Of a stretch of 48,277 nucleotides of DNA, positions 18,555 through 34,803 are shown piece by piece. Position 1 is the first letter of the stretch. The number at the start of each line of letters is the position of its first letter. The notes under the pieces are model-generated. The model was given only the letters and a program-made list of their open reading frames with translations. It was not told the DNA's origin and made no database searches. A program made the translations under genes and the position numbers. Source of the DNA: Acrocarpospora corrugata (GTDB taxonomy: Bacteria; Actinomycetota; Actinomycetes; Streptosporangiales; Streptosporangiaceae); assembly GCF_009687845.1 (NCBI RefSeq), contig NZ_BLAD01000097.1, positions 1 to 48,277 on the forward strand. Reading direction: 5' to 3'.

Positions 18555-18571
18555 ATGATAACTGTTTTCAT
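18555..18571. promoter_or_regulatory. Zur box between rpmG and the CobW-like gene
   Basis: ATGATAAC-T-GTTTTCAT is a 17-base inverted repeat with 7 of 8 arm positions paired, in the 7-1-7 layout known for actinobacterial Zur operators. It lies in the 77-base gap between the divergent rpmG operon and the CobW-like gene and would control both. It aligns with the other two Zur sites here at 14 of 18 positions. Confidence 0.8.
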
Positions 18572-18593
18572 TCTTGCAACTTGGGAGATCCCC

Positions 18594-19730
18594 GTGCCCA
18601 CCCCCGTCGTCCTGGTCGCAGGCCTGCACGCCTCAGCTCGCACAGCTACCGTCGACCGGTTCCTGGCCGACCATCCAGGCGCCGTAGTCATCCACCACGA
18701 CCTGCGCGAGGTCATCTCCGGCCGGGTCGAGCGCGTAGTGCGCGACGCCTCCGGCGTACGGGACCTGGCCGAAGTACGGCTGGCGCACGGCTGCGTGACC
18801 TGCACCGTCCGCGAAGACCTGCTGCCCCAACTGCTCCAGCATGCCGCTGCCCCCCTGCTGGTCGTGGACCTGTGGGACTCGGTCGAACCCCGCTCGGTGG
18901 CCGAGGCACTCGACTGCGAAGAGGCCCACGAGGTCCTCCGGCTGACGTCCGTACTGACCGCGCTGCACACCGAGCACCTGCCGGTCGACATCACCCGCGG
19001 CGAGCGCCTGGCAGAAGCCGGCCGGAGCGCGGCGACCGGCGACCGGCGCTACCTGGCCGAAGTGCTGGCCCGACAGATCGAGTACGCCACCGCCCTGGTC
19101 CTGCACGGCGGCGACGAGGAGGACGTCGATCTCGCCCGCGCCCTGCTCGCGCACCTCGCGCCCGTCACCCCGGTCTTCGCCGACTCCCTGCCCGACGTGA
19201 CCGGCACCGCGCTGTGCACCCAGGAGCTGGCAGAACGCGTCGACCCCGCCACCGCCCTACTCCCCTGCGACGCGCAGACCGGCGAGGTCACCACCATCGT
19301 CTGGCGCCGCCTGCGGCCGCTGCACCCCGCCCGCCTCTTCGAGGCCGTCGACGAACTGGTCACCGAGTCGGTCCGCTCCCGCGGGCGGTTCTGGCTGGCC
19401 ACCCGGCACAACCGCATGCTCGCCTGGGACGCCGTCGCGGGCGCGGTGTCGGTCGAGGACGCGGGCCCGTGGCTGGCCGCACTCCCGGAGGCCGCCTGGG
19501 ACCAGATCTCGCCCGCCCGCCGCACGGCCGCCTCCCTGGACTGGACCGACGCTCTCGGGGATCGCGTCCAGCACCTGGTCTTCACCGGCCCAGACCTCGA
19601 CCGCGAACGCATTCACGCGCTACTCGACTCCTGCCTGCTCACCCCCGCCGAGGCCGTGTCCGGCTCGAACCTGTGGGCAGGCTACGACGACCCGTTCGCC
19701 GCCATCCTCGATCTGAAGGAGATCGCATGA
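18594..19730 (+). CDS. COG0523/CobW-like putative zinc chaperone protein
   Basis: The 378-residue protein, started at GTG 18594 (GGGAG 6 bases upstream), matches the COG0523 G3E family: a metal motif [16 protein letters not shown] (CxxC) and C-terminal regions [26 protein letters not shown] and [15 protein letters not shown]0523 proteins under Zur are thought to deliver zinc to client proteins. The normal P-loop GxxGxGKT is replaced by [20 protein letters not shown], so GTP binding is uncertain. This variant is common in Streptomyces zinc regulons. It is divergent from the zinc-free ribosomal genes and shares their operator. Confidence 0.88.
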
Positions 19731-20614: not shown

Positions 20615-21082
20615 CTAGTCCCGCTCGTCGGCGCCCGCATTGCGCTTCCGGGGGCGGCCTGGCTGGTCGCGCGGCGCGTCGAAATCCTGCTCCGAGAGCG
20701 CTGGTCGCACGCAGGCGGCGCAGACCCCGTACACCGCTTCGACCTCGAAGCCGTCCGGACGGCGCTCGGCCGCCTGTTCCAGGACCAGCCCGCAGGCCCG
20801 GCAGATCAGATGGTGGTGCCGGGCGGGGCCGCAGACCCGGTAGGTCGCCTCCCCGTCCTGGTTGAAGGCGTGCACGAGACCGGCGTCGACGAGCGAGGAC
20901 ATCGCCCGGTACACGGTCGTCAGCCCGATCGGCTCGCCCCGCTGGAGCAGTTCCGCGTGCACCTGCCGGGCGGTGATCGGCCGCGCCTCGGCGAGGAGCG
21001 CCTCCAGCACCAGCACGCGCTTCCTCGTCGCTCGGACGCCGGCTCCGCCGAGCCGGGCGTGCCATCGCAGTAACTCGGGCAT
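20615..21082 (-). CDS. zur: Zinc uptake regulator Zur (Fur family)
   Basis: The 155-residue product (MPELLRWHARLGGAGVRATR) has the Fur fold: VRATRKRVLVLEALLAEARP, TTVYRAMSSLVDAGLVHAF, then HHHLICRACG and VCAACVR with two CxxC pairs for the structural zinc and a His-rich regulatory site. I chose ATG 21082 (GGTGA 5 bases upstream) because a longer reading to 21136 adds non-conserved residues. It is divergent from znuACB, and shared operators in the 104-base gap point to autoregulation and znu control. Fur or Nur are less likely given the zinc context. Confidence 0.9.
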   Translation of the reverse strand: MPELLRWHARLGGAGVRATRKRVLVLEALLAEARPITARQVHAELLQRGEPIGLTTVYRAMSSLVDAGLVHAFNQDGEATYRVCGPARHHHLICRACGLVLEQAAERRPDGFEVEAVYGVCAACVRPALSEQDFDAPRDQPGRPRKRNAGADERD

Positions 21083-21100
21083 ATCGGTCACCGTTACAGC

Positions 21101-21121
21101 TTGACAATGGTTTTCGTTTTC
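21101..21121 (+). promoter_or_regulatory. znuA promoter with Zur operator
   Basis: TTGACA at 21101-21106 is a consensus -35, and TACATG at 21122-21127 is a possible -10 (short, 15-base spacer). Between them the 19-mer GACAATGGTTTTCGTTTTC (21103-21121) matches the site before the RiPP precursor at 17 of 19 bases. A second half site, GAAAACCGT at about 21155-21163 downstream, may add binding. Zur with zinc would block RNA polymerase here. Confidence 0.78.
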
Positions 21122-21186
21122 TACATGGTTGTCCACGAAAGCACCAGCTTGAAATGAAAACCGTAACTGATCTAGGAAGGTCCGGC

Positions 21187-22107
21187 ATGCACCCCCTGCG
21201 TTCTGCCGCCCTCTGCACCCTTACCTTGCTGCTGGCCGGCTGCGGCGGCACCGCCAGCCCGGCGGCCACCAGCGGAACCTCCGCCGCGGCTCCCGGACTC
21301 ATCACGGTCGTCGCGTCCACCAATGTGTACGGCGACATCGCCCAGCAGGTGGGCGGCGATCGGGTCGAGGTGACTTCGATCATCTCCGACCCTGGCCAGG
21401 ACCCGCACTCCTACGAGGCCAACACCCAGAACCAGCTCGCCCTCTCCAAGGCGAAGCTGGTGATCGAGAACGGCGGCGGTTACGACGACTTCGTCGACAC
21501 CATGCTCAAGGCCAGCGGCAACACCGCCGCCGAGATCGTCAACGCCGTCACCGTCTCCGGCAAGACGGCCCCCGCCGGCGGGGAGCTGAACGAACACATC
21601 TGGTACGACCTGCCGTCCGTCGCCAAGATCGCGGATCAGATCTCGGCGGGCCTGGCCAAGGCCGACCCCGCCTCCGCCGCTGCCTTCACCGCCAACGCCG
21701 ACGCCTTCAAGGCCAAGCTCAAGCCCCTGGAGGACCGTACGGCGCAGCTCGCGACCGAGGCGACGGGCACAGCCGTCGCGATCACCGAGCCCGTCCCGCT
21801 CTACCTGCTGGACGCCGTCGGGCTCAAGAACCTCACCCCTGAGGAGTTCAGCGAGGCCATCGAGGAAGGCGACGACGTCTCCCCGCAAGTTCTGGCCGAG
21901 ACGATCGCGCTGTTCACCGGCAAGAAGGTGGAAGCCCTGGTCTACAACGAGCAGACCAGCGGCCCGCAGACCGAGCAGCTGAAGAAGGCGGCGACCGACA
22001 ACGGCATCACGGTGGTCCCGGTCACCGAGACCCTGCCGGAAGGCAAAGACTACGTCGCCTGGATGACCGGCACCCTCGACGCACTCCAGGCCGCCCTCAC
22101 CACATGA
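21187..22107 (+). CDS. znuA: Zinc ABC transporter substrate-binding lipoprotein
   Basis: The 306-residue product starts at ATG 21187 (AGGAAGG 6 bases upstream) and has a lipoprotein signal with lipobox LLLAGC. The cluster A-I fold is clear: VVASTNVYGDIAQQVGGDRV, DPGQDPHSYEANTQ with the His ligand, NEHIWYDLPSVAKIADQI with the second His, and a C-terminal EALVYNEQTSGPQTEQL. The long His-rich loop of some ZnuA proteins is absent. It captures Zn(II) outside the membrane for ZnuBC. It overlaps znuC by 4 bases. Confidence 0.94.
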   Translation: MHPLRSAALCTLTLLLAGCGGTASPAATSGTSAAAPGLITVVASTNVYGDIAQQVGGDRVEVTSIISDPGQDPHSYEANTQNQLALSKAKLVIENGGGYDDFVDTMLKASGNTAAEIVNAVTVSGKTAPAGGELNEHIWYDLPSVAKIADQISAGLAKADPASAAAFTANADAFKAKLKPLEDRTAQLATEATGTAVAITEPVPLYLLDAVGLKNLTPEEFSEAIEEGDDVSPQVLAETIALFTGKKVEALVYNEQTSGPQTEQLKKAATDNGITVVPVTETLPEGKDYVAWMTGTLDALQAALTT

Positions 22108-22937
22108 CCGCCACCCCGCTCATCACCCCGCGCCGCTCGAACACCGATAACGTGATCAGTCTCAGCGGCGCGGAACTCGCCTTCGGCGACCGGATCCTGT
22201 GGCAGGGCCTGGACCTGGAGCTGGGCCGGGGCGAGTTCGTCGCCGTCCTCGGCCCGAACGGCTCGGGAAAGACCAGCTTCCTGCGGGTTCTCCTCGGACA
22301 GCAGCACCTGAGCGCGGGCACCCTGCTGATCCAAGAACGGCCACCCCGCCGAGGCAGCGCCCTGCTCGGTTACATCCCGCAGCACCGGGCCGTCGCCCCG
22401 CAAACTCCCCTGCGTGGCCGCGACCTGGTCCGGCTGGGCCTGGACGGTCATCGCTGGGGCCTGCCCGTCGGCGACCGGCGAACCCGCCGGCAAGTCGACG
22501 AACTGCTGGAAGCCGTGGGCGCCAAGGCATTCTCTGACCGCCCACTGGCCCTGCTCTCCGGCGGCGAATTGCAACGGCTTCGCGTCGCACAGGCCCTGGC
22601 CACCGACCCGGCCATCCTGCTCTGCGACGAACCCCTTCTCTCGCTCGACCTGCATCATCAGAAAGTGGTCGCCGAGCTGGTCAACCAGCGGCGGCGCACC
22701 CACGACACCACGGTGGTGTTCGTCACCCACGAGATCAACCCCATCCTGGAGATGGTGGACCGCGTGCTCTACCTCGCCGAGGGACGATTCCGCTTCGGCA
22801 CCCCCGCGGAGGTCATGACCTCCGCGAGCCTCTCCAGCCTGTACGGGAGCCCGGTAGAAGTGGTCCACCTCAACGGCAGGCTCGTGGTCGTCGGCGCCCC
22901 CGGTTCCCACGACCACGGCGGAGAACCCTCAGCATGA
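22104..22937 (+). CDS. znuC: Zinc ABC transporter ATP-binding protein
   Basis: The 277-residue ATPase shows Walker A GPNGSGKTS, the Q-loop GYIPQHRA, signature LLSGGELQRLRVAQAL, Walker B ILLCDEPLLSLD and the switch His (FVTHE). It starts with ATG overlapping the znuA stop (ATGA). A His-rich tail (GSHDHGGE) is present. Confidence 0.95.
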   Translation: MTATPLITPRRSNTDNVISLSGAELAFGDRILWQGLDLELGRGEFVAVLGPNGSGKTSFLRVLLGQQHLSAGTLLIQERPPRRGSALLGYIPQHRAVAPQTPLRGRDLVRLGLDGHRWGLPVGDRRTRRQVDELLEAVGAKAFSDRPLALLSGGELQRLRVAQALATDPAILLCDEPLLSLDLHHQKVVAELVNQRRRTHDTTVVFVTHEINPILEMVDRVLYLAEGRFRFGTPAEVMTSASLSSLYGSPVEVVHLNGRLVVVGAPGSHDHGGEPSA

Positions 22938-23800
22938 CCGGCGACATCTGGCAGCAGATCTTCAACTACGACAACTACGGCGAACTCCTGGTCCTGGTCC
23001 GCAATTCCCTGATCGCCGGAGCCATGCTGGGCCTGGTCGGCGGCGTCATCGGCACCTTCGTCATGATGCGCGACCTCGCCTTCGCCGTGCACGGCATCGC
23101 CGAACTGTCCTTCGCGGGTGCCTCCGCTGCGCTCCTCATCGGGGCGAATGTGGCCGCGGGTTCGCTCGTGGGGTCGATACTCGCGGCGCTGATCATCGGC
23201 GCGTTGGGCGTACGGGCCCGGGATCGCAACTCGGTCATCGGGGTGCTCATGCCCTTCGGCCTCGGCCTCGGCGTGCTGTTCCTGGCCCTGTACAAAGGCC
23301 GCGCGGCGAACAAGTTCGGCTTGCTCACCGGTCAGATCGTGGCCGTCGACACCGTTCAGATGAGCTGGCTGGTCGGCACCTCCGCCGTGGTCCTGCTCGG
23401 GCTCGCCGCAGTCTGGCGGCCTCTGGTGTTCGCCAGCCTTGACCCCGAGGTCGCCGCCGCCAGAGGCGTCCCCGTCCGGGTCCTCTCCCCTGTCTTCATG
23501 ATCCTGCTCGGCCTGTCAGTGGCCGTCTCCATCCAGGTCGTCGGCGCGCTGCTCGTCCTGGCCCTGCTCGTCACCCCGGCCGCGGCGGCCATGCGGGTCA
23601 CCGCGTCACCGATCCGGGTGACGCTGCTCAGCGTCCTGTTCGCCGTGACCTCGGTGGTGGGCGGCATCCTGCTCGCCCTGGGCAGCACCATCCCGATCAG
23701 CCCGTACGTGACCACCATCTCTTTCGCCCTCTACCTGGGCTGCCGGATCGTCGGCGGCGGCACTACTCGTAGGGCTCGACAGGTTGCGGAATCTCGGTGA
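22934..23800 (+). CDS. znuB: Zinc ABC transporter permease
   Basis: The 288-residue ABC-3 type permease has about 8 hydrophobic segments (LIAGAMLGLVGGVIGTFVMM, the conserved RDLAFAVHGIAELSFAGAS, VVGALLVLALLVTPAAAAMR). It overlaps znuC by 4 bases and its 3' end overlaps the 3' end of the opposing ycgQ-like gene by 38 bases (23763-23800). Confidence 0.95.
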   Translation: MTGDIWQQIFNYDNYGELLVLVRNSLIAGAMLGLVGGVIGTFVMMRDLAFAVHGIAELSFAGASAALLIGANVAAGSLVGSILAALIIGALGVRARDRNSVIGVLMPFGLGLGVLFLALYKGRAANKFGLLTGQIVAVDTVQMSWLVGTSAVVLLGLAAVWRPLVFASLDPEVAAARGVPVRVLSPVFMILLGLSVAVSIQVVGALLVLALLVTPAAAAMRVTASPIRVTLLSVLFAVTSVVGGILLALGSTIPISPYVTTISFALYLGCRIVGGGTTRRARQVAESR

Positions 23801-24497
23801 CCGAGATGGCGTCCAGTTCGGGGGCGACGGTCCCGGCCGGGAGCTTGCCGGACTTGGGTTCCCGCCAGGTGCCGGTGACCTCGATCCAGGTGTTCTCCGG
23901 CGGCATGGTGGCGTCCAGGACGGCCACCTTCAGCGCGATGCCGTCGGCCGCGCAGCACGCGATCTGAATTCGGGCCACATACCATCGGTCCTTCTTCTTC
24001 ACCGAGGGCACGACGAAGCCGGTCAGCTTCACCTGCCGACCCACCAGCGAATTGGCCGAATCGCCCCAGGCCCGCCCGATGAACTCGCTTAAGGCCATGT
24101 CGTTGACCTTCCCGGCGGGGAGGGCGTGGTAGGCGTCCAGCGCGGCGACGGGCGGCTGGGCTGGGGCCTCCTCCGACTTGGCCGAGAACGCGCCGAGTGC
24201 GGGCGGGGCGATCAGGTAGATCGCGAACACCGGTAGCGTCAGCAGCCAGGCCACCCGCGGCGCATGCCCGTGCTCATGTCCGTGCTCATGCCCCTCGTGG
24301 TGGTCCGGCCGCGGGGAGCCACGCCATTCCTGGATCAGCCCGACGACGCCGAGCACGAACACCACCGCGGCCGCCGCGATCAGGAACGGCTGGAAGCCCG
24401 GCTTGACGTAGTTCAGGTAGGTGGTGGACAGCGTGGTGATCCGCAACACCGCTCCACCCAGCAGGATCAGAATCATGCTCTGCGTCAGCCGGTTCAC
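23763..24497 (-). CDS. YcgQ/DUF1980 (TIGR03943) membrane protein
   Basis: The 244-residue protein has two N-terminal membrane segments (ILILLGGAVLRIT, FLIAAAAVVFVLGVVGLIQ), a His-rich loop (DHHEGHEHGHEHGHAP), a third segment and an extracytoplasmic domain with QVKLTGFVVPS, ARIQIACCAADGIALKVAV and WIEVTGTWREP. This is the TIGR03943 putative permease subunit, paired with the COG0701 permease in many zinc regulons. GTG 24497 overlaps the ycgR-like stop (GTGA). The His-rich loop suggests metal handling. Confidence 0.85.
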   Translation of the reverse strand: MNRLTQSMILILLGGAVLRITTLSTTYLNYVKPGFQPFLIAAAAVVFVLGVVGLIQEWRGSPRPDHHEGHEHGHEHGHAPRVAWLLTLPVFAIYLIAPPALGAFSAKSEEAPAQPPVAALDAYHALPAGKVNDMALSEFIGRAWGDSANSLVGRQVKLTGFVVPSVKKKDRWYVARIQIACCAADGIALKVAVLDATMPPENTWIEVTGTWREPKSGKLPAGTVAPELDAISVTEIPQPVEPYE

Positions 24498-25507
24498 AGC
24501 AGGACCTCCCCGACCGCCATGCTGACGATCACCGCGAGTACAAAGGTCAGCGGAATGAACCGGGCGGCGAACCGCCGCCCGAAGGTCCCCGCCTGCAACG
24601 CGATCAACTTCAGGTCGACCATCGGCCCCACCACCAGGAACGCGAGCCGCGCGGTCGGGGAGAAGGCGGTCATGGAGGCGGCCACGAACGCGTCGGCCTC
24701 CGAACAGATCGACAGGATCACCGCCAGCAGCGCCAGCGCCAGCACCGAAACCACCGGGATGCCCGCCACCGACTCCAGCCACGATCGTGGGACGACCACG
24801 TTCATCGTCGCCGCGGTGGCCCCGCCGACGACGAGGAACCCGCCCGCGTGCAGGAAGTCGTGCCGCATCGCGTCATGGAAGGACTGCCACTTCGATCCTG
24901 CGCCGCCCGTGCGCGAAGGGATGCGCAGCCATTCGGCACGTCCGAACCGCAGCCACACCCATCCGGCCAGCACCGCGACCAAGAGCGAGGCCCCGAACCG
25001 GGCCACGGCCATCATCGGCTGCCCGGGAAAGGCCACCACCGTCGCCACGATGACCACCGGATTGATCGCCGGAGAGGCCAGCAGGAATGCCAGCGCCGCC
25101 GCCGGGGTCACCCCCCGGGACATCAGCCCGGAGGCGACCGGCACCGACGCGCACTCGCACCCTGGCAGCACCGCCCCGGCCGCGCCCGCCACCGGCACCG
25201 CCAGGAAGGGCCGCCTCGGCAGTGCCCTGGTCCAGAACGAGGCCGGGACGAACGCGGTGATCGCCGCCGACAGCAGCACGCCGAAAGCCAGGAAGGGCAA
25301 CGCCTGGACACAGATGGCCACGAAGATCGTCGCCCACGCCTGCAACGCCGGAGCCGTCAGATACGGCGTGAACACCAACCGCCCGATCACCAGCAACCCG
25401 ACGACCACGGCGAACATCCACGGCCCCACCGCCGCCACCGGCTGCCGCCGCCCCCACTCCGAGGGAGGGATCTCCTCGGCGGCGTCGACCGTCACTCGCT
25501 CAGACAT
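24494..25507 (-). CDS. YcgR/COG0701 permease
   Basis: The 337-residue protein has about 8-9 membrane segments and the COG0701 signatures GCECASVPVASGLMSRGV, FLLASPAINPVVIVAT and LSICSEADAFVAASM. I start at ATG 25507 (GGGAG 9 bases upstream) because upstream residues look non-coding. It forms a coupled pair with the YcgQ-like gene. In Bacillus and many actinomycetes such pairs occur with Zur or COG0523 genes and are suspected in zinc transport. The 104-base gap to the MFS gene shows no clear terminator or Zur box, so read-through from the RiPP operon is possible. Confidence 0.85.
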   Translation of the reverse strand: MSERVTVDAAEEIPPSEWGRRQPVAAVGPWMFAVVVGLLVIGRLVFTPYLTAPALQAWATIFVAICVQALPFLAFGVLLSAAITAFVPASFWTRALPRRPFLAVPVAGAAGAVLPGCECASVPVASGLMSRGVTPAAALAFLLASPAINPVVIVATVVAFPGQPMMAVARFGASLLVAVLAGWVWLRFGRAEWLRIPSRTGGAGSKWQSFHDAMRHDFLHAGGFLVVGGATAATMNVVVPRSWLESVAGIPVVSVLALALLAVILSICSEADAFVAASMTAFSPTARLAFLVVGPMVDLKLIALQAGTFGRRFAARFIPLTFVLAVIVSMAVGEVLL

Positions 25508-25611: not shown

Positions 25612-26805
25612 CTATGAACCGATCACGGCTTCTTTGCGACGTTGCGCTGCCAGGCGGCGGGCCGGGGGGAGGGTGAGGGTCGTCAGAACGGTGCCGGCGA
25701 CCAGCAGGAGTGCGGTTCTGGCGGAGGTGAGTTCGGCGAGGGTTCCGGCGAGGGCGGCTCCGGCGGGCTGGCCGCCCCAGGCGATCATGCGGGCAGTGGT
25801 GTTGACTCTGCCCTGGAGTTCGTCGGGGGTCTGCTCCTGGCGTTCGATGATCCCGTTGAGGCTGACCAGGGTGTTGGCGGCCTGCCAGCAGGCCAGGACG
25901 GGGAGGGCGAGCGGGAGCCGATCGGTGCACGCCCACGCGATGAGAAGCAGCCCGACCGCGGTGAGTCCGCTGAGGGAGATGGCGGGCGTGCTGAAGCGGC
26001 GGCGCAATCGGGGCAGGAGCAGACCGGCGAGCATCGCGCCGACGGCCGCCGAGGCGAACAGGAGCCCGATCCGGCCGTCGCCCGAGGACAGGCCGAACCG
26101 TTCGACCGCGACGACGACGAGCAGGCCGAGGACCGCGCCCTCGGCGAGGCTGTTACCGATGCCGAGGAACGTCAGCGAACTGATCATGGGGTGGGTTCGG
26201 ATGTAGCGGATGCCGTCGCCGATCTCGGCGCGCAGATTCCGTTTCTCCCCCGGTGCCGTTGCCGGGAGCGGCAGGCGGGACAGCAGCAGGGCGGCGGCGG
26301 CGTAGCTCAGCGCGTCGAGGCTCATGGCGTGGGAAGGGCCGGTGGCGGCGATGAGAGCACCGGCGAGCGCGGGCCCGATCAGGGCGACCAGCGTGCTGAG
26401 CGTCATCAGGGTGCTGGTGGCTTTGGCGATACCCCCGCGGCCGACCAGGGCGGGGAGCGCTCCGAACGCGGCGGCGTCGAAAAACACGAAGGACGCCGAA
26501 GCGCCCGCGGCGACCACGAACAGTTGGGGTGTGGTGAGCAGGCCGAGCGTGGCGGCCACGGGGACGCTCGCGATGAGGAGCGCGCTGGTCCAGCTGGTGA
26601 CGGCGAGGGTGCGGCGGCGGTTCCACCGGTCGGCCAGAGCTCCGGCGGGCAGGCCGAGGAGTAGGTAGGGGATGGCTTCCAGCGCGGCGAGCAGGCCGCT
26701 GAGCGCGGCGCTGCCGGTGCGCTGGTAAAGCAGCACGGGCAGCGCCACGAGGGTGATCGACGATCCGACCCAGGAGATCAGCCGGGCCGTGAGGTAGCGG
26801 GACAT
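25612..26805 (-). CDS. MFS exporter (EntS/MFS_3-like)
   Basis: The 397-residue protein has 12 predicted membrane segments and MFS motifs: YLLLGLPAGALADRWNRRR (motif A), FFDAAAFGALPALVGR and ERQEQTPDELQGRVNTTARM, typical of the MFS_3 group that includes the enterobactin exporter EntS. It is the last gene of the RiPP operon, starting at ATG 26805 that overlaps the stop of the binding protein gene (TGATG). Its likely role is secretion of the mature peptide. Confidence 0.85.
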   Translation of the reverse strand: MSRYLTARLISWVGSSITLVALPVLLYQRTGSAALSGLLAALEAIPYLLLGLPAGALADRWNRRRTLAVTSWTSALLIASVPVAATLGLLTTPQLFVVAAGASASFVFFDAAAFGALPALVGRGGIAKATSTLMTLSTLVALIGPALAGALIAATGPSHAMSLDALSYAAAALLLSRLPLPATAPGEKRNLRAEIGDGIRYIRTHPMISSLTFLGIGNSLAEGAVLGLLVVVAVERFGLSSGDGRIGLLFASAAVGAMLAGLLLPRLRRRFSTPAISLSGLTAVGLLLIAWACTDRLPLALPVLACWQAANTLVSLNGIIERQEQTPDELQGRVNTTARMIAWGGQPAGAALAGTLAELTSARTALLLVAGTVLTTLTLPPARRLAAQRRKEAVIGS

Positions 26806-27782
26806 CAGAACACGGTGGGGTGCAGGGCGCGAGCCAGCGCCTGGGTGCCGTCGATGGCGCGCAGGGCGGAGTAGTCGGCGGCCGGGGTGCCGATGAGGCG
26901 TCCGTTCTTGACGGCCTTGGTCTGGCTGAGGTGCTGGCGCAGCCAGGTTTCCGCGGCGGCCCGGTCGGTGTCGTCGGTGTAGTGGTAGATGATCGTGTCG
27001 GGGTCGGCCTTGGCGACGGTCTCGACGGAGATGGCGTCGAAGTTCTTGCCTGCGGGGACCATGCCGTCCAGGAGGTTGGCGCCGCCCGCCGTACGGACGA
27101 TGTCGGAGTAGAGGCCGCGGGCCAGCGCGTAGAGCTGCTTGTCGAAGATCTGCACCATGGCGGTGCCGACCGGTGGCTGTCCGGTCAGTCGCTCGCGGAG
27201 GTCGGTGAGGGCGGCCTCGACGGTGGTCTTGGCCTTGGCCGTACGGTCGGGGACGCCGAGGAGGGCGCCGAGGGCGTCGAGGTCACGGCCGGTGTCGGCG
27301 AGGGTGGCGGTGCCGGTGGTGTCGGGGCAGAACGCGGCGTCGACGTAGACGGGGACGCCGAGTGCGGCGAGTTCGGCGATGGTGGGGAGTTTCTTGCCGT
27401 CGAAGTTGTATTCGCCGTCGGCGAGGATGAAGTCCGGCCGGGCGGCCAGGAGCGCCTCCCTGGAGATCTCGCCGGAGGCGAGGACCTTCACCGAGGCGTA
27501 GTCGGCGGCGTAGGCGGGCTTGGGCGGTGACTGGTCGGTCCAGACCTGCCCGGCGATGCGGTCCTTCAGGCCGAGGGCGAGCAGGAGTTCGGTGTTGGAG
27601 GGGAAGAAGGACACGATCCGCTGCGGGGGCTGGTCCACCTGTACGGTCCGCCCGCAGTTGGTGACCTGGGCGGGGAAGGCGGTCGTGGCAGGATCGGCCG
27701 CGACGGCGTTGGGTTCGGTGGTCGCGCCGCAGGCGGCGGTGAGGGCCAGTAGCGCGAACACGGCGATGCGATTGGTCTTCAT
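26805..27782 (-). CDS. Metallophore/cobalamin-type ABC substrate-binding lipoprotein
   Basis: The 325-residue product has a lipoprotein signal (ALLALTAACGA). The type III binding-protein fold follows: QPPQRIVSFFPSNTELLLAL, PDFILADGEYNF, GLYSDIVRTAGGANLLDG and SVETVAKADPDTIIYHY. Such proteins capture siderophores, haem or cobalamin. Here the gene overlaps the ATPase gene (ATGA) inside the Zur-linked RiPP operon, so its ligand is probably the metal-loaded peptide. Confidence 0.9.
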   Translation of the reverse strand: MKTNRIAVFALLALTAACGATTEPNAVAADPATTAFPAQVTNCGRTVQVDQPPQRIVSFFPSNTELLLALGLKDRIAGQVWTDQSPPKPAYAADYASVKVLASGEISREALLAARPDFILADGEYNFDGKKLPTIAELAALGVPVYVDAAFCPDTTGTATLADTGRDLDALGALLGVPDRTAKAKTTVEAALTDLRERLTGQPPVGTAMVQIFDKQLYALARGLYSDIVRTAGGANLLDGMVPAGKNFDAISVETVAKADPDTIIYHYTDDTDRAAAETWLRQHLSQTKAVKNGRLIGTPAADYSALRAIDGTQALARALHPTVF

Positions 27783-28546
27783 TGGAGCTCTCTGATTTCT
27801 TGTCGTGGGGCGAAGGTGAGGTTGGGGCGGCCGGTGAGCGGGTTGACGCCGAGGTGGGCGCGGACTCCGAACACCTCGGCGAGGAGCGCGGGGGTCAGGA
27901 CGTCGATGGGCGGGCCGTGCGCGACGACCCGTCCGGCGGACAGGACGTAGAGGCGGTCGCAGTAGGCGGTGGCGAGATTGAGGTCGTGCAGGGCCGCCAG
28001 CGTGGTGATCTTCAGCTCGCGTACCAGCTCAAGGAGTTCGAGCTGGGCGGCGATGTCGAGATGGTTGGTCGGTTCGTCCAGGACCAGCACCTCGCCCTGC
28101 TGGGCCAGGGCGCGGGCGAGCAGGACGCGCTGGCGTTCGCCGCCCGAGAGCGTGACGTAGCGTCGGTCCGCCCTGTCGTGCATGCCGACGCGTGCCAGAG
28201 CCCGGGCGATGATCTCCCGGTCCGCGGCGGGCGTGGAGCGGTGCGGGGTGCGGCCGGTCGCGACCAGTTCGGCGGCGGTGAAGTCGAATCCGTCCGCGCT
28301 GTGCTGAGCTACGACGGCCGTCCGCTGCGCGGAGCGGCGGGCCGACAGCGCCCGCCACACGTCGTCGTCGTCCACGCGCACGGTTCCGGCGTCGGGACGC
28401 CGCGCGCGGTAGAGCGTACGCAACAGGGTGGATTTGCCGCTGCCGTTGGGTCCGATCAGCCCGACGAGTTCACCGGGTTCGACGTCGAGGTCGACTCCGC
28501 TCACGCCGCCGATCTCGACATGGACGCCGGACAGCTGGACGCGCAT
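27779..28546 (-). CDS. FecE-type ABC transporter ATP-binding protein
   Basis: The 255-residue ATPase has Walker A GLIGPNGSGKSTLL, the Q-loop VVAQHSADG, signature TLSGGERQRVLLARALAQ, Walker B VLVLDEPTNHLD and switch His ALHDLN. It starts at ATG 28546 that overlaps the permease stop, and its own stop overlaps the binding-protein start. It powers the FecCD-type importer. Confidence 0.93.
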   Translation of the reverse strand: MRVQLSGVHVEIGGVSGVDLDVEPGELVGLIGPNGSGKSTLLRTLYRARRPDAGTVRVDDDDVWRALSARRSAQRTAVVAQHSADGFDFTAAELVATGRTPHRSTPAADREIIARALARVGMHDRADRRYVTLSGGERQRVLLARALAQQGEVLVLDEPTNHLDIAAQLELLELVRELKITTLAALHDLNLATAYCDRLYVLSAGRVVAHGPPIDVLTPALLAEVFGVRAHLGVNPLTGRPNLTFAPRQEIRELQ

Positions 28547-29583
28547 CAGGCCACCGCCGTCTCGCGGCGCAGTAGCCACAGGAAGAAGGGCGTGCCCAAG
28601 GTCGCGGTGAGGATGCCGAGGGGAAGTTCCAGCGGCGGTGACAGGGTGCGGGCGGCGAGGTCGGCGGCGACCAGGAACAGCCCGCCGGTCATCGCGATCA
28701 GCGGGAGAGTCCGCCGGTGGTCGGGGCCGACGAGCAGCCGGACGGCATGCGGGACGATCAGCCCGACGAAGGCGATCCCCCCGGCGACCGCGATGACGGC
28801 GGCCGTCAACAGCGCGGCCACCGCCAGGAGCACCAGCCGGAACCGGTGGACGGGAATGCCGAGCGCGGCTGCGGTCTCGTCGCCGAGTAGCAGCGCGTTC
28901 AGCCGCCGCGCCTGCGACAGCAGCCAGCCGGTGCAGGCCACCACGATCACGGCGGGCGCGGTCAGGTCGCTCCAGCGGGCTCCGGCCACCGATCCCAGCA
29001 GCCAGAACAGGATCCCGGCCAGCTGGTCGGGCTGGGCGCGCAGCTGCAGATAGCTGGTGGCCCCCTGGAGCAGGTAGGACAGGGCGACCCCGGCCAGGAC
29101 CAGCCGCGTGGGGGTGAGCGCGCCCCGGCGGCTGCCCAGCGCCAGCACCAGCGCGAGGGTCGCGCAGGCTCCGGCGAAGGCCGCCCCTGACACGCCCAGT
29201 CCGGCGACGCTCCCGAGGGTGATGACGGCGACGGCGGCCAGGGACGCTCCGGAGGTGATGCCGAGCACGTACGGATCGGCGAGCGGATTGCGGACGACGG
29301 TCTGCAGGACGGCCCCGGCGACGGCGAGCCCGGCCCCGGCGATCAGGGCGAGCACGGTCCTGGGCGCGCGCGAGTTCCAGATGATCTCGTTGTCGATGCC
29401 GCTGACATCGGCGGGCGGGCGTCCGGTCGTCAGGTGGGCGGTGATCACCCGCCACACGTCGGCGGCGGGCAGGTCGACCGCTCCATAGGTGACGGCTGCC
29501 ACGAGCAGGACGGGCACAGCCGCGAGCAGCAGGGCGGCCAGCAGCGGGTAGCGCCGTCCGGAGATGAGGTGAGGGGAGCGCAA
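28546..29583 (-). CDS. FecCD-type ABC transporter permease
   Basis: The permease has about 345 residues when started at TTG 29583, just after the YcaO stop, which gives the usual N-terminus before the first segment (YPLLAALLLAAVPVLLVAAV). An ATG at 29646 inside the YcaO gene would add 21 atypical residues. Family motifs are present: RAPRTVLALIAGAGLAVAGA, NPLADPYVLGITSGASLAAV and GIAFVGLIVPHAVRLLVGPD. It has about 10 membrane segments and imports metallophores with the following ATPase and lipoprotein. Confidence 0.9.
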   Translation of the reverse strand: MRSPHLISGRRYPLLAALLLAAVPVLLVAAVTYGAVDLPAADVWRVITAHLTTGRPPADVSGIDNEIIWNSRAPRTVLALIAGAGLAVAGAVLQTVVRNPLADPYVLGITSGASLAAVAVITLGSVAGLGVSGAAFAGACATLALVLALGSRRGALTPTRLVLAGVALSYLLQGATSYLQLRAQPDQLAGILFWLLGSVAGARWSDLTAPAVIVVACTGWLLSQARRLNALLLGDETAAALGIPVHRFRLVLLAVAALLTAAVIAVAGGIAFVGLIVPHAVRLLVGPDHRRTLPLIAMTGGLFLVAADLAARTLSPPLELPLGILTATLGTPFFLWLLRRETAVA

Positions 29584-29593
29584 CGGAGGTCTT

Positions 29594-30892
29594 TCAGTGC
29601 GGGAGGGGCAGGGAACGGCGCGGACGACCGTCCAGACTCGCCTCAAGCCGGGTCCCGCCCAGGAACGGCAGCCCGGCGGCGGTGTTGGAGTAGGTGCCGG
29701 GCGCGATGACGCGGACCACGTTCAGGCCCGTCTCGCGTACGTCGGCGGTGGTGAGGTCGCTGTAGAAGACCTGAGGGCCCAGCCGCTCGGCGAGCTCACC
29801 GGCGTTGCCAGGCGGTGGCGGTGTGAGGGTGGGCCGGTGTTCGGTGAGGGCTTGGGCGAGTTCGTCGTCGAACTCCGCCTGGATCGCGGGATCCAGGAAC
29901 AGTTGCAGGTGACAGCCGTAGTCGACGACATCGGCGAGGTCGGCCCGGTAGGAGGAACCGTAGGCGCGGTCGGATCGCCAGGGTTTGAGAGGGCTGCGCG
30001 GGTCGGCCGCGACCCTGCAGTAGGGCCCGTCCGGGTCGTCAAGGCCGGCGACGAACAGCTGCAGCTGCAGAGCCTCGCCGTAGGCCTTGATCATCGAATC
30101 CTCCACATTGGCGCGTACGCCCATGCCGAGGGTCAGGTAACCGCTCTCGCGATCGCGGACCAGCGCTCCGGCCACGCACAGGCCGCTCGGGTTCGGGAAT
30201 TCGAGGAACCGGACGTCCAGCCGTCGTCGCGGCCCTTCGGCGAAGACGGCAAGCCAGGGCGGCGGGGTGAGGGCGCGGAGTCCGGCCCTGCCGTGCCAGG
30301 CCAGCGTCATGGCGTCCCGTTCGACGATCTCGCACAGCCCGCTCCATACGGCGAACTCGCGCGTCGGCCCGGCGGCCAGGCCCGCCTGAATGACCGGGTT
30401 GGTGCGTGGCGTGGGCGGGGTGAGGTCGGCGGAGAAGTAGGACACCCACACCAGCCCAGCCGGAACGAGCCTGGCCTCGCCGGTGACCAGGTCGGTGGCC
30501 GTGGTCCACTCCACCGGCAGTTCCGAGGTGAACTCGGCGAGCGGGAAACCCGCCTGCGCGTACTGGCCGGCGGAGTACAGGGCCAGTGACGCCGGATCCA
30601 GCGCCGTCGGGCCGAGGTCGCCGTAGGCGGCTGTCAGCAATCCGGCGGGGACGAGGTTGCCGCAGTACCGTTCGGCGGCCTCACCGAGCGCCGCGCCTAA
30701 GGCGGCTTCGGGGTCGGCGAACGCGTATCCGGCCCCGGCGGAGTCGGCCGGCCAGGGGCTGAAGCGGGTGGTGTCGGACAGCAGGGCGGTGATCAGCTCG
30801 AACGAGCCGGGCAGATGATCGGGAACGTCGGTGTGGACGAGGCCGCGGACGATGCCGGTACGGGCGTCCAGAAGGGAGGCATACATGGTCAC
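29594..30892 (-). CDS. YcaO-family cyclodehydratase (second copy)
   Basis: This 432-residue YcaO protein has the ATP-binding Glu motifs GAALGEAAERYCGN, GLCEIVERDAMTLAW and DSMIKAYGEALQLQLF and a C-terminal proline-containing tail (RRSLPLPH). YcaO enzymes use ATP to activate a peptide amide, giving azolines, thioamides or amidines. It follows the first YcaO with a GTGA overlap (GTG 30892; ATG 30886 is an alternative) and is a diverged paralog of it. Two consecutive YcaO genes suggest either a heteromeric enzyme or two different backbone modifications. Confidence 0.9.
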   Translation of the reverse strand: MTMYASLLDARTGIVRGLVHTDVPDHLPGSFELITALLSDTTRFSPWPADSAGAGYAFADPEAALGAALGEAAERYCGNLVPAGLLTAAYGDLGPTALDPASLALYSAGQYAQAGFPLAEFTSELPVEWTTATDLVTGEARLVPAGLVWVSYFSADLTPPTPRTNPVIQAGLAAGPTREFAVWSGLCEIVERDAMTLAWHGRAGLRALTPPPWLAVFAEGPRRRLDVRFLEFPNPSGLCVAGALVRDRESGYLTLGMGVRANVEDSMIKAYGEALQLQLFVAGLDDPDGPYCRVAADPRSPLKPWRSDRAYGSSYRADLADVVDYGCHLQLFLDPAIQAEFDDELAQALTEHRPTLTPPPPGNAGELAERLGPQVFYSDLTTADVRETGLNVVRVIAPGTYSNTAAGLPFLGGTRLEASLDGRPRRSLPLPH

Positions 30893-32211
30893 GCCAGTGG
30901 GAGGGGATGAGGGAACAGGTTGTCTTCGGTCAGGACGCGGTCGGTCAGCCCGAGCAGCTGCGGCGTCTCATACAGGCGGGGGCCGCCGCGCAGCGGGAAG
31001 GCGGGCGGGGCGTTACCCACCATTCCGGGGACCAGGACCCGCACCACCGACAGCCCGGCCATGGCGATATCACGGGTGGTCAGGTCGGCGCTGTACGCGG
31101 TCAGCCCGGCCTCGGCCAGCCGGTCCAGATAACCGGCTGGGTCGGCGGCGGGCAGATCGGCCAACGCGGGGCCGGGCTGGGCGCGAAGCCGGTCTAGCGG
31201 GCCGCCCTGCATGCGGGGGTCGAGGTAGAGCTGGGCGATGGCGGGCAGGTCGGTGAGGTCGCGGTAGTCGGACCGGAAGGCGTCGCGGTAGGTCCGGTCG
31301 GCGCGGAAGGGCCGGAACACGTGCGCCTCCAGGGCGCCGGTGGCCACCGCTCGCCACACTTCGCCGTCGGGATCGGCGAGCTGGCAGGTCAGCGAGTACA
31401 GGCCGTACGCCTCGACCAGCGCCTTGGCCGCTGCCTCGCCGGAGGTGGGGCGACATGCGCTGCCGAACGCGACGATTCCCTCGCCCTCCAGGAACGCGGC
31501 CATCACCGGTACGCCGAAGGGTGAGGGAACGGCCAGCAGCCGCACCGAGGGAACCTCGCCGCCAAGCGGCGCGGTCACCCGCTCCGGATCGGACACGGCC
31601 TCGACCCCGGCCCCGCTCGACCACCAGATCGTGGTGGCGTCCCGTTCGAACAGTTCCTCCAAGGCGGCCCGCTCGGCCCGGCGCCGGGTCGGACCCGCCG
31701 CGATCCCGGAGTAGAAAAGCGAGTGTGTGGCCGGTTCGGCGGCGCGTGGGCCGTGGAAGTAGTCGAGCCAGACCATCGACGCCGGGACCAGCACCGGTTC
31801 GCCGGTCCGCAGGTTCGTGGCGGGCGTCCAGGCGATCTCCAGATCACGGGTGAGCGGGACGAACGGAAATCCGGGCTCGCGGTACTGGTCGGCCGAATAC
31901 AGCGGGATCGTCTCGGGGTCGAGCGCGGCTTCGCCGAGCCGCCGCCAGGACGAAATGAGCAGGTTCCCTGGGATGGCGTTGCCGCAGTACCGCTCCACGG
32001 CCTCACCGAGCGCCGCGCCACGGGCCCGGGCCGGATCGGCGATGGCCGCGCCGAACCCGTGCCGGTCGGCCTTCCAGTCGGCGAACCGGCGGGTGTCGGA
32101 GACGGCCGACCCCCACCCGGTCCAGAAGCGGGGCAGACCGGGCGGCCGGGCCTGGGTTTCGAGCGCGGTCAGCACCCCGGTACGCCGGTCGACCAGCAGG
32201 TCTTCGTTCAT
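30889..32211 (-). CDS. YcaO-family cyclodehydratase (first copy)
   Basis: The 440-residue protein has GAALGEAVERYCGNAIPG, ERAALEELFERDATTIWW and AAAKALVEAYGLYSLTCQ, the ATP/Mg-binding pattern of YcaO proteins, and ends FPHPLPLA, which contains PxPxP (PHPLP), the C-terminal motif of azoline-forming YcaO enzymes. There is no fused leader-binding domain, consistent with the separate E1-like gene upstream. It overlaps the CocE gene by 4 bases (ATGA). Confidence 0.92.
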   Translation of the reverse strand: MNEDLLVDRRTGVLTALETQARPPGLPRFWTGWGSAVSDTRRFADWKADRHGFGAAIADPARARGAALGEAVERYCGNAIPGNLLISSWRRLGEAALDPETIPLYSADQYREPGFPFVPLTRDLEIAWTPATNLRTGEPVLVPASMVWLDYFHGPRAAEPATHSLFYSGIAAGPTRRRAERAALEELFERDATTIWWSSGAGVEAVSDPERVTAPLGGEVPSVRLLAVPSPFGVPVMAAFLEGEGIVAFGSACRPTSGEAAAKALVEAYGLYSLTCQLADPDGEVWRAVATGALEAHVFRPFRADRTYRDAFRSDYRDLTDLPAIAQLYLDPRMQGGPLDRLRAQPGPALADLPAADPAGYLDRLAEAGLTAYSADLTTRDIAMAGLSVVRVLVPGMVGNAPPAFPLRGGPRLYETPQLLGLTDRVLTEDNLFPHPLPLA

Positions 32212-33698
32212 GAGGTCTCCAGGACGAGCCGTAGGGCACGCACGCTCTGCCGAACGGGAGCGGTCGCGGTGGTGGTGTAGCGGTCGGCTCCGGTGCCGAG
32301 GGCCAACGCGAGACGAGGGAAGTCGCTGCCGGCGATCTCCAGCCGGAGCCTGGATCCGGCAGGCAACGTGGATACGACAGGGCTCAGGACCAGACGGCCG
32401 GATCCACCCGACCGGCCGCGGGTCAGCTCGAAGACCTGACCGTCGGCGGTGTGTTCGGTCAGTCGGACGATCCAGTCGACGTCGCCGATGGGAGCGGCGA
32501 CGTCCAGGTGCGCTTCGGCCGCAGTGAAGGTGAGCGCGGCCGGAAGTGGCGGGGTGGCGTATCGGAGGGCGTCGGGACGTTCATCGAGGGCTTTGCGGTC
32601 GGTGGCGGGTGCCAGCGAGGGACGCGGGTCCGCTGGGTCGTGAACGAAGCCGCCGAGCGTGGCGTCGGGTTGGCTGGGGCGGAGGGATCCGTCCGGGTGG
32701 GCGTGCAGGACGCGCTCTGTCGTATCCGACGGCCAGGACAGCCAGGTCGTCCCGCCGATCGGGAGGATCTGCTCCCCAGCTCGCGCGGTGCCGTCCAGGC
32801 AGTCCCGAAGCCAGGCGACCTGCAGTGCGCCCAGGTCCAGCAGCGAGTGCGCCCCGTGGTCCCGGTCGGCGTATCTGGTCCGGCCGGTGAAGGCCAGATC
32901 GTGACCCCACGGGCCGATCACCAACTGCTGCGGCGGGCGCGGAGTCAGGGCGCTGCCCACGGTGCGCCAGTGCGCCAGGGTCTCCTCGATCAGCAGGTCA
33001 TACCACCCGCCGATATGGAGGCCGGCGGTCGGCAGGGAGGCCAGTTCCCGTTCGGTGATCTCCTCCTTCGGCTGGTGGCACGGTCCGTCGCGGACGACAT
33101 CCGCCCATCCGGGAAGGCTCACGCCGATCCGGTCAGGCAGCCCGGTCACCGGTAAATGGGCCAGCGCGCCGGGATCTGTGCCGAGCAGGAGCGCGGTGAG
33201 GCCGTCGCGGCTGACACGGCCGTCGGCGCGCTCCAGCCACCAGGCCGCGTGCTCGGCCAGCCGGAGGACACCGTTCTCGAACTTGGTGCGGTACAGCGCC
33301 ATCGACGGCCCCATGCTGACCACCGCCGCGACGACCTCGGGCCGTTCGACGGCCAGCGCCCACGCGGTGTATCCGCTGTAGGAGCCGCCGTAACCGATGA
33401 GGCGTCCGTCGCTCCACTCCTGGGCGCGGATCCAGTCGGCCAGCGCGGCGCCGTCGCCGCGTTCGTTGCGGTAGCACTCCCAGACCCCGTCGGAGTCGTA
33501 CCGGCCGCGCACGTCCTGGACCACGTACGCGAAGCCGCGCCGCGCCCAGCCGACTCCTTCCGCCAGATGATGACCGCGTCCGTACGGCGTGCGGGTGACG
33601 ACCGTCGGTACAGGCCGGACAACAGCGTCGGGTAGGTGGACATCCAGCGCCAGCGGGGTGCCGTCCCAGCCGGGCAACCGCAGGTTGTAGCGGTTCAT
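32208..33698 (-). CDS. CocE/NonD family alpha/beta hydrolase (X-Pro peptidase-like)
   Basis: The 496-residue protein, from ATG 33698 overlapping the previous stop (ATGA), has the S15/CocE pattern: YVVQDVRGRYDSDGVW, the nucleophile elbow GYGGSYSGYTAW, GWYDLLIEETLAHW, LVIGPWGHDL with the catalytic His region and a C-terminal jellyroll domain (LTEHTADGQVFELTRG). Relatives cleave after X-Pro or hydrolyse esters. The precursor repeats contain Gly-Pro-Gly and His-Thr/Ser-Pro, so this enzyme is a good candidate for leader removal or release of repeats. The role is inferred. Confidence 0.88.
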   Translation of the reverse strand: MNRYNLRLPGWDGTPLALDVHLPDAVVRPVPTVVTRTPYGRGHHLAEGVGWARRGFAYVVQDVRGRYDSDGVWECYRNERGDGAALADWIRAQEWSDGRLIGYGGSYSGYTAWALAVERPEVVAAVVSMGPSMALYRTKFENGVLRLAEHAAWWLERADGRVSRDGLTALLLGTDPGALAHLPVTGLPDRIGVSLPGWADVVRDGPCHQPKEEITERELASLPTAGLHIGGWYDLLIEETLAHWRTVGSALTPRPPQQLVIGPWGHDLAFTGRTRYADRDHGAHSLLDLGALQVAWLRDCLDGTARAGEQILPIGGTTWLSWPSDTTERVLHAHPDGSLRPSQPDATLGGFVHDPADPRPSLAPATDRKALDERPDALRYATPPLPAALTFTAAEAHLDVAAPIGDVDWIVRLTEHTADGQVFELTRGRSGGSGRLVLSPVVSTLPAGSRLRLEIAGSDFPRLALALGTGADRYTTTATAPVRQSVRALRLVLETS

Positions 33699-34444
33699 GT
33701 GATCGGCAGCGGCAGCACGGGATGCCGGTCCAGGCCACCGGACGCCGGATCCACGACGAGCTGGAAGGATCCGCTCGCAGGAAGACCGGTGGCGTGCCAG
33801 GTCAGCACATCGTTGACGAGCAGGCCGGCGGCGAGCGCGACCGCGCCCGCGTTCGGCCAGGGAACCGGGGGCAGCGCCACCTTGCCCGCCGCGCCCGCGT
33901 CCAGGTAGGACCACAGACCCGCGAGCTCGTCGGGCAGCGGCGACGCCGCGAGCCTGCGGCCCCGCAGATCCCGGTAGGACGCGGTCCGCCCCGGCACCGT
34001 CATCGGCCCGAGCACCAGCCGGGTCCCCTCGACGTGACAGCGATGCCAGACCGTCCCGCCCGCGTCGACCCGCTGCCAGCTCTCGTCCGGCAGCCAACTC
34101 GCGCAGGCGACCAGCACATCGGCCGCACGCGGGTCGTCGCCCACCTCCGCGACCCCCTCCAGTAACCGCGTGACGTGCAGGGCCACCGGCCCGTCCCCGC
34201 TCACGCACACCCGCAACTCGTTCTGGGTGACCTCGGGAGCCGTTCCGAACACCCCCCGCTCCCGCAGGACCGCCGCCAGCGGCTCCAGCTCCGGGTCGTT
34301 TCCACCCTGATAGGCCTGGTCGCGCATCCGCTCCAGCAGTGCGGCCGGACCTGAAAGCCGTGCGAACCGCTCGTGCTCATCACACGAGCGCCAGGTCCCG
34401 TCCGGGCCCGGGTACAGATGATGACCGGGGGTGATCGACTCCAT
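33695..34444 (-). CDS. Leader-peptide-binding E1-like (ThiF-type) protein, TOMM partner
   Basis: The 249-residue protein has an N-terminal winged-helix (RRE-like) part with HLYPGPDGTWRSCDEHERFA and DPELEPLAAVLRERGVFG, then a ThiF-like Rossmann part: LRVCVSGDGPVALHVTRLL, ADVLVACASWLPDESWQRVD and LVLGPMTVPGRTASYRDLRG. Proteins of this type bind the leader of thiazole/oxazole-modified peptides and present it to YcaO. The place where relatives have a zinc CxxC (GRTACLRC-like) reads GRTASYRD here, so the usual structural zinc is apparently missing. It starts at ATG 34444 after GGAGAAG and is coupled to the CocE gene. Confidence 0.72.
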   Translation of the reverse strand: MESITPGHHLYPGPDGTWRSCDEHERFARLSGPAALLERMRDQAYQGGNDPELEPLAAVLRERGVFGTAPEVTQNELRVCVSGDGPVALHVTRLLEGVAEVGDDPRAADVLVACASWLPDESWQRVDAGGTVWHRCHVEGTRLVLGPMTVPGRTASYRDLRGRRLAASPLPDELAGLWSYLDAGAAGKVALPPVPWPNAGAVALAAGLLVNDVLTWHATGLPASGSFQLVVDPASGGLDRHPVLPLPIT

Positions 34445-34500
34445 CGGCTTTCTTCTCCGCGGTTCGAGGGGTTCTGGGGATTCGACGGGTGAGGGGGGAC

Positions 34501-34529
34501 GGGCGGCCCGTTTGGGGAACGGGCCGCCC
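34501..34529 (-). terminator. Hairpin between precursor and processing genes (attenuator)
   Basis: GGGCGGCCCGTT (34501-34512) pairs perfectly with AACGGGCCGCCC (34518-34529) around a TGGGG loop. It lies 8 bases after the precursor stop and 57 bases before the next gene. It has no U-run and the next gene has no separate promoter that I can see, so it probably acts as a partial terminator or 3' stabiliser giving excess precursor mRNA. Confidence 0.7.
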
Positions 34530-34537
34530 TGCCGGAA

Positions 34538-34726
34538 CTAGGCGTTCCAGGCGAACGGGGAGTGCACCAGCGCGTTGGTGCCCGGACCCTGCAGCGCCGG
34601 AAGCGCCGCCTCGGCGACCAGTTCCTCGAACGCGAACGGCGTGTGCACCAGCGCGTTGGTGCCCGGACCCTGCAGCGCGGGCAGCGCCGCCTCCGGGGTC
34701 AGTTCCTGGAACTCAAGGATGTTCAC
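34538..34726 (-). CDS. RiPP precursor peptide with two tandem core repeats
   Basis: The 62-residue peptide starts at GTG 34726 (GGGAG 6-7 bases upstream) and ends TAG 34538. After MNILE come two 27-residue repeats (residues 6-32 and 33-59, 23 identical) and a final WNA. Each repeat has an acidic part (FxELxxEAALPALQG) and a conserved block PGTNALVH followed by TPFAF in the first and SPFAW in the second. There is no Cys; Thr and Ser after His are the likely YcaO targets. It lies under a Zur-like operator and upstream of all processing genes. The DNA repeat of 81 bases is highly conserved, including synonymous sites, which suggests recent duplication. Confidence 0.82.
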   Translation of the reverse strand: MNILEFQELTPEAALPALQGPGTNALVHTPFAFEELVAEAALPALQGPGTNALVHSPFAWNA

Positions 34727-34744
34727 GAGGTTCTCCCATCGACA

Positions 34745-34767
34745 TTGAAAACGGTTTTCGTTTTCAA
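34745..34767 (-). promoter_or_regulatory. Zur operator of the RiPP operon
   Basis: The 19-mer GAAAACGGTTTTCGTTTTC (34747-34765) contains a perfect dyad GAAAAC-G-GTTTTC and is also flanked by perfect 8-bp arms TTGAAAAC (34745-34752) and GTTTTCAA (34760-34767). It matches the site in the zur/znuA region at 17 of 19 bases. A possible minus-strand promoter is TTGCGC (34803-34798), 16 bases, TCTAAA (34781-34776), which would put the transcription start next to the operator, about 20 bases upstream of the precursor's start region. Confidence 0.82.
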
Positions 34768-34803
34768 GGTCGAACTTTAGACATGCACACCCCTCGGGCG
34801 CAA

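Follow-up and report, generated by a model that had tools for sequence, protein, structure and literature searches.

The operon and its Zur-type operator

The window analyzed here is a whole stretch of 48,277 nucleotides (nt) from Acrocarpospora corrugata (family Streptosporangiaceae), one complete contig, and our subject is an operon of nine minus-strand genes on it for a ribosomally synthesized and post-translationally modified peptide (RiPP). A preliminary description of this DNA had ordered these genes from a precursor peptide gene to the gene of an MFS_3 exporter and had noted overlaps of 1–4 bases between most of them; family searches of the window proteins recover all nine genes in that order (table 1). 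The overlaps are 4 nt at the E1/CocE, CocE/YcaO-A, YcaO-A/YcaO-B, and ATPase/lipoprotein junctions, 1 nt at the lipoprotein/MFS junction, and 1 or 4 nt between FecCD and ATPase, depending on the choice of start; the longest FecCD open reading frame runs 53 nt into the YcaO-B gene, and the FecCD start is therefore ambiguous.

The precursor matches the NCBIfam model NF040715 ("streptamidine-related RiPP repeat protein") with 114.6 bits against a cut-off of 45, and each of its repeats contains a core block of the form A-x-Q-G-P-G-T-N-A-L-V-x-x-P-F. Russell et al. (2021) described the streptamidine family in more than 230 species, with FecBCDE genes, AmiA–D, and a motif-B group that often has two YcaOs (PMC8442711). 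In the window, an NF040715 precursor with an ALV-containing repeat is adjoined by YcaO, E1-like, and hydrolase genes, there are two YcaO genes, and a FecBCDE-type importer is present, so that assignment of the cluster to motif B of this already known biosynthetic type is well supported by sequence. The NF040715 match rules out a brand-new RiPP class, and the preliminary description, which named no described YcaO-made RiPP zincophore of this layout, had missed that the cluster belongs to a family already in print (NF040715; PMC8442711).

The E1-like protein had been called leader-binding. Its match to TIGR03882 stays below the cut-off; however, its predicted model (predicted local distance difference test [pLDDT] 92.7) has LynD, TruD, and MccB as top Foldseek matches, a resemblance that makes leader binding and partnering of the YcaO proteins likely. 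YcaO-A keeps the invariant E/R/D/K positions in alignment and has a Pro-containing C-terminus with PLP-type end residues, and the CocE/S15 hydrolase is probably the leader peptidase. The lipoprotein belongs to a class of binding proteins (PF01497; siderophore, heme, and B12) that is distinct from the ZnuA family (PF01297), and its ligand is, on this class assignment, more probably a complex than a bare ion. Together with the FecCD permease and the EntS-like MFS protein it fits the cycle of export and re-import that had been proposed. None of the nine genes gave an AmiE-like dehydrogenase match in the family searches.

A perfect dyad, TGAAAAC-N7-GTTTTCA, lies at 34746–34766, 19 nt upstream of the precursor GTG. 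As the preliminary description had noted, it precedes the precursor gene, and the pattern TGAAAAC-N{0,7}-GTTTTCA occurs only this once in the whole 9.27-Mb genome (reversed control pattern: 0). The operator as scored by our matrix ends 17 nt ahead of the start codon, a position fit for a transcription-blocking repressor; a promoter and terminator scan gave nothing useful and found no promoter. Allowing up to three mismatches, the window contains three such dyads against 0.14 expected, and the other two, at 18550 and 21102, stand beside zinc genes. In Streptomyces coelicolor zinc-bound Zur represses zinc-uptake genes, and its motif, tGaNNatSatNNtCa (PMC5472717), agrees with the operator motif of this analysis.

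Table 1. Coordinates of the operon, the Zur-type sites, and neighboring genes in the window
Feature	Position	Strand	Remarks
Zur-type operator before precursor gene	34744..34767	-	35.4 bits; matrix trained on COG0523/znuA operators only
Precursor peptide, 62 amino acids (aa)	34538..34726	-	GTG start 34726, stop end 34538; two 27-aa repeats
AmiB-like E1/leader-binding protein	33695..34444	-	TIGR03882 28.4 bits, below cut-off 36.9
AmiC-like CocE/S15 (X-Pro) hydrolase	32208..33698	-	ATG start 33698; TIGR00976 192.1 bits, PF02129
YcaO-A (AmiD-like)	30889..32211	-	TIGR03604 264.8 bits, cut-off 219
YcaO-B, second YcaO, typical of motif B	29594..30892	-	TIGR03604 228.4 bits
FecCD/BtuC-type permease, putative start	28546..29646	-	PF01032 329.6 bits
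Importer ATPase	27779..28549	-	TIGR03873 281.9 bits, below cut-off 372; PF00005
Substrate-binding lipoprotein	26805..27782	-	PF01497; resembles siderophore/heme/B12 binding proteins in profile and fold
MFS_3/EntS-like exporter	25612..26805	-	PF05977; NF007792 (EntS) 122.7 bits, below cut-off 324
ArsP_1 permease, directly downstream of operon	24494..25507	-	PF03773
TIGR03943/DUF1980 protein, downstream of operon	23763..24497	-	TIGR03943 157.3 bits
znuABC-type zinc importer	21154..23800	+	PF01297 193.5 bits; AztC/A/B-like, below cut-offs
Zur-type site between zur and znuA (dyad 21102)	21095..21122	+	27.6 bits; itself a matrix training operator
Fur-family regulator, probably Zur, putative start	20615..21088	-	PF01475; best PDB match FurB 2o03, then 7vo0/3mwm
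Zur-type site between L31/L28/S14 genes and COG0523 (dyad 18550)	18549..18572	+	47.3 bits; itself a training operator
S14, L28, type B L31 (-) and COG0523 GTPase (+)	17575..19730	mixed	NF006477, TIGR00009, NF002462 above cut-off

The same contig carries a zinc-starvation island of genes for S14, L28, type B L31, a COG0523 GTPase (with a CobW_C domain; Mrf/ZigA-like below cut-off), zur, and znuABC. The Fur-family regulator of this island is probably Zur. Its best PDB match, 2o03, is named as FurB, zinc uptake regulation protein, and ranks above Fur entries; we take 2o03 to be the Mycobacterium tuberculosis FurB and 7vo0/3mwm to be S. coelicolor Zur. The pair of ArsP_1 and TIGR03943/DUF1980 genes (23763–25507) recurs near six other RiPP loci (L107, L141, L153, L161, L162, L169).

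Zur-type sites across the family

YcaO-A has matches at E ≤ 1e-30 in 69 of 345 genomes of the window's order, and a scan of named genomes gave 79 loci, kept from the best 80 of 434 stretches. Among these the nearest relatives are in Acrocarpospora macrocephala (89%), A. pleiomorpha (88%), two Streptosporangium (81 and 78%), and A. catenulata (76%), and farther ones in Streptomyces, Amycolatopsis, Arthrobacter, Frankia, Pseudonocardia, Rhodococcus, Nocardia, Clavibacter, and others. Three classes are conspicuous among their precursors: motif B with its TNALV repeats, HSSNH peptides of 31 aa, and HTPAVD peptides. The window and its relatives, 26 loci in all, supply 42 distinct motif-B repeats; A, Q, TNALV, and PF do not vary among them, and the residue following TNALV is His in 36.

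For the operator search we used a 24-column matrix. It was trained on 25 operators that precede COG0523 or znuA genes in relatives, and RiPP sites were kept out of it; znuA alone matched 7 of 30 genomes (E ≤ 1e-20), so COG0523 (17 of 30) was added. The training operators were drawn from 31 loci, after exclusion of three with no clear site (L091, L093, L098) and four with identical or near-identical operators (L069, L071, L081, L082), while L096 contributed two. A site was counted if it lay no more than 400 nt ahead of the precursor motif and scored at least 16, and the 33 of 79 loci that have no recognized precursor motif, some with Zur sites (such as L110 and L159) and some with none, were not counted. 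By this rule a site precedes the precursor in 21/25 motif-B loci, in 9/12 HSSNH loci (11/12 within 4.5 kb), and in 0/9 HTPAVD loci; Fisher's test of 21/25 versus 0/9 gives P = 1.4e-5, related loci not being independent. In these loci, the stretch that begins 300 nt beyond the precursor motif and runs through YcaO, 144,949 bp in total (90,548 + 38,768 + 15,633), contained 0 matches. In the matrix scan, 56 of 908,208 real position-scores were above 16 versus 2 of 9,082,080 after shuffling in 200-base blocks, and 18 of the 21 motif-B sites lie 90–96 nt ahead of the TNALV motif.

Streptamidine loci themselves agree. In one genus, probably Streptomyces, 33 of 246 genomes have a streptamidine precursor; 30 loci were read, two were truncated and showed no motif, and all 28 with the motif in view have a site (scores 22.8–32.5), whereas the other 74,508 positions gave 0 matches. 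For 20 such genomes larger regions were scanned; the amiA site is present in 20/20, and a second site lies upstream of the importer permeases, 4060–4390 nt before the amiA motif, in 18/20. L31, L28, or COG0523 neighbors occur in 9/20; a 26% COG0523 match (L226) was not counted, and S14 matches were left out of these comparisons. A FecCD importer gene is found in 23/25 motif-B loci (exceptions: L105, a short contig, and L122). Where the motif-B importer operon stands apart, on the other strand or far away, a site scoring at least 16 within 700 nt upstream of FecCD is present in 9/12 cases (L106, L110, L112, L116, L119, L121, L124, L125, L129); L110, whose precursor motif is unrecognized, is included by gene layout, and at L119, and probably at L129, importer and precursor have one promoter region in common. 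Zur control of the operon, as the preliminary description had proposed, is strongly supported by these comparisons, and membership in the Zur regulon is well supported on sequence grounds.

Of the 79 loci, 9 have a znuABC set, or ArsP_1 together with DUF1980, at a distance of up to about 10 kb (L107, L113, L141, L153, L157, L159, L161, L162, L169), none of them HTPAVD. The related operons L138, L140–L144, L153, L157, L159, L161, and L162 have two or three YcaOs and sometimes an ATP-binding cassette (ABC) exporter pair, and several contain the 31-aa peptide of the ...HSSNHAT...AWR type; zur-znuABC adjoins those of A. phusangensis (L157) and Herbidospora cretacea (L159). Four tested HSSNH-type peptides, three of 31 aa and one of 35 aa (L043), matched no NCBIfam or Pfam model.

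In a phylum-wide precursor search NF040715 matched 1 of 396 genomes, the window's own, and NF040714 matched 2 of 396, a sampling too thin to judge spread. Spread by plasmids was considered and dropped, with a single match of 36% identity at E ≤ 1e-40. One 3.5-Mb genome (G483) has three streptamidine-type clusters (L065, L066, L067), two of them with a Zur-like site. Outside this group, two Paenibacillus YcaO loci, L163 (8343–8357) and L165 (137–151), each contain four TCGTAATNATTACGA-like boxes with up to two mismatches (0.03 and 0.02 expected, respectively), one just upstream of CocE. Presumably this is a Firmicutes Zur-type box; no streptamidine-like precursor was recognized at either locus, and relevance to the family is only suggestive.

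A sister group with nickel-type dyads

Loci with HTPAVD precursors carry a different dyad. TTGCRA-N5-TYGCAA, with up to one mismatch, is found in 7/9 of them (L128, L130, L135, L146, L149, L160, L164) and, over the 400 nt ahead of the precursor motif, in 0/25 motif-B and 0/12 HSSNH loci. It closely resembles the Nur box tTGCaa-N5-ttGCAA (PMC3919588). Matches to a substrate-binding protein, FecCD, and an ATPase are in view at 5/9 HTPAVD loci, and the two HTPAVD precursors tested matched no NCBIfam or Pfam model. At L160 a Fur-family gene with 37% identity to the window's probable Zur lies at about -3535 from YcaO, between two Nur-type dyads. We regard the HTPAVD clusters, from their sequences, as candidate nickel-controlled metallophore clusters. 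With Zur sites at motif B and HSSNH versus Nur-type dyads at HTPAVD, each YcaO branch seems to be tied to its own metal sensor.

Interpretation and comparison with known systems

A motif-B streptamidine-family operon with a conserved Zur-type operator and zinc genes as neighbors can be read directly from the DNA, and we favor, with some confidence, zinc acquisition as its most likely job, with a product that is exported and re-imported. In the mechanism that we infer, from Zur occupancy through all chemical steps to transport direction and zinc binding, Zn-Zur would sit on the operator just before the start codon and silence the genes when zinc is present, and would leave it when zinc is short, switching them on. 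The E1-like protein would then bind the two-repeat precursor, on which the two YcaOs would carry out amidine or azoline chemistry before the CocE/S15 hydrolase trims it. The MFS protein would export the product, and the lipoprotein with FecCD/ATPase would bring a product–metal complex back, beside ZnuABC. Genes for putative export and import functions are grouped with those for synthesis in this one operon. Zinc binding by the mature product is a candidate function and unproven, the one tested relative, streptamidine, being negative.

Several observations weigh against zinc acquisition. Streptamidine bound neither Zn(II) nor other metals in liquid chromatography–mass spectrometry assays, a ΔamiD mutant behaved like the wild type under metal starvation, and deletion of amiF1–4 abolished streptamidine, which is unexpected for a plain importer (PMC8442711). 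The motif-B repeat block lacks Cys, and the His after TNALV is replaced by Asp or Gln in 6/42 distinct repeats, so that there is no universal zinc ligand, and we dropped His as a common one. Sites in related species are not independent, and three Rhodococcus loci share an identical one. Four motif-B loci stay under the threshold (L107, 14.4; L114, 10.6; L117, 8.9; L122, -4.2); post hoc, a TGAGAAY-type dyad was noticed in the customary position at L107, L114, and L117, and L122 has none and also no FecCD gene in view. Sites are likewise missing at L067, the third cluster copy in G483; at the separate importer operons L109 (11.9), L114 (7.5), and L137 (6.9) by rule; and, within 400 nt, at the HSSNH loci L138, L157, and L171, though at L138 and L157 one lies farther up, ahead of exporter genes. 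The Nur pattern, for its part, matched once in the 90,548 bp of motif-B coding sequence.

Among other explanations, an unlikely one that survives best is a Zur-controlled peptide serving as a competitive weapon or signal under zinc scarcity, with the FecCD importer for immunity or recycling. Zur control is independent of what the product does, and streptamidine bound no metal and was proposed by its authors to act in signaling or development. Against this role stand its lack of antibacterial and antifungal activity (PMC8442711) and the importer gene in 23/25 motif-B loci, with an own or shared Zur site at 9/12 separate importer operons. We think it improbable that the zinc-regulated peptide has some other metal as its ligand or serves to save zinc, perhaps by standing in for a zinc-dependent factor: zinc is indicated by regulation only, and the lipoprotein is related to siderophore, heme, and B12 binders as well as to CeuE Ni-His binders, but the sister branch with its nickel-type operator suggests that regulator and ligand metal pair up. 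It is very improbable that the dyad is read by a Fur-family regulator other than Zur, such as an iron regulator, with the peptide as a siderophore. Fur-family boxes look alike, and the window regulator scores better against Fur models than against the one Zur model among the matches listed, all below cut-off; however, the matrix comes from zinc-gene operators in the same family, the window's zinc genes carry the same site, the best solved relative of the regulator is FurB, and the iron chrome azurol S (CAS) assay of streptamidine was negative (PMC8442711). A chance or non-functional dyad, conceivable because AT-rich palindromes arise by chance, we reject on the shuffled controls and the conservation across loci, with the 90–96 nt spacing of most motif-B sites.

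The zincophore interpretation of the preliminary description is thus partly supported as a whole. Zinc acquisition could extend to a wider proposal, which we offer tentatively and with some doubt: YcaO RiPPs would be metal-specific metallophores, with a Zur/zinc branch (streptamidine, motif B, HSSNH) and a Nur/nickel branch (HTPAVD), and the isolated streptamidine would be a spent fragment left after import and hydrolysis. This would explain why streptamidine does not bind zinc, why it is lost on amiF1–4 deletion, and why the dehydrogenase AmiE is required for a product that has no oxidation (PMC8442711). A growth defect could be masked by ZnuABC acting redundantly. If this holds, YcaO enzymes would provide a RiPP pathway to zinc and, alongside it, one to nickel. 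For the widespread orphan streptamidine family the regulation points to a zinc-supply job, and Zur operators across many actinobacterial genera single out zinc starvation as the condition of interest; metal-replete media or an intact ZnuABC may be why products or phenotypes escaped notice.

What appears new is the regulation, by Zur-type operators, and not the biosynthetic type. Russell et al. suspected metal import and left the role open, and the word "Zur" is absent from the main text as accessible (PMC8442711). A link between the streptamidine family and Zur was not found in the open-licence literature, as judged by titles and abstract openings. The window is like motif B of the streptamidine family (PMC8442711; NF040715) in its precursor family, AmiB, AmiC, AmiD, two YcaOs, and FecBCDE-type importer. 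Unlike the streptamidine system, it has an MFS exporter in place of the ABC pair amiT1–T2 (PMC8442711), and it has a two-repeat precursor and lacks an AmiE-like dehydrogenase.

To our knowledge streptamidine is the only isolated product of the family, and none of the metallophores coelibactin, ethylenediamine-disuccinate, and pseudopaline is made by a YcaO on a ribosomal precursor. The window shares with these three a metallophore-type biosynthesis under Zur (PMC6103462), in its own case by sequence; unlike such Zur-controlled zincophores, its zinc ligand is a candidate only. The idea of a ribosomal peptide metallophore is shared with the copper-chelating bufferins. Methanobactin, too, is a copper-chelating RiPP, and both are made, as far as we know, by other enzymes (MNIO-type) and no YcaO; the window system differs from them in its enzymes and in its proposed metal.

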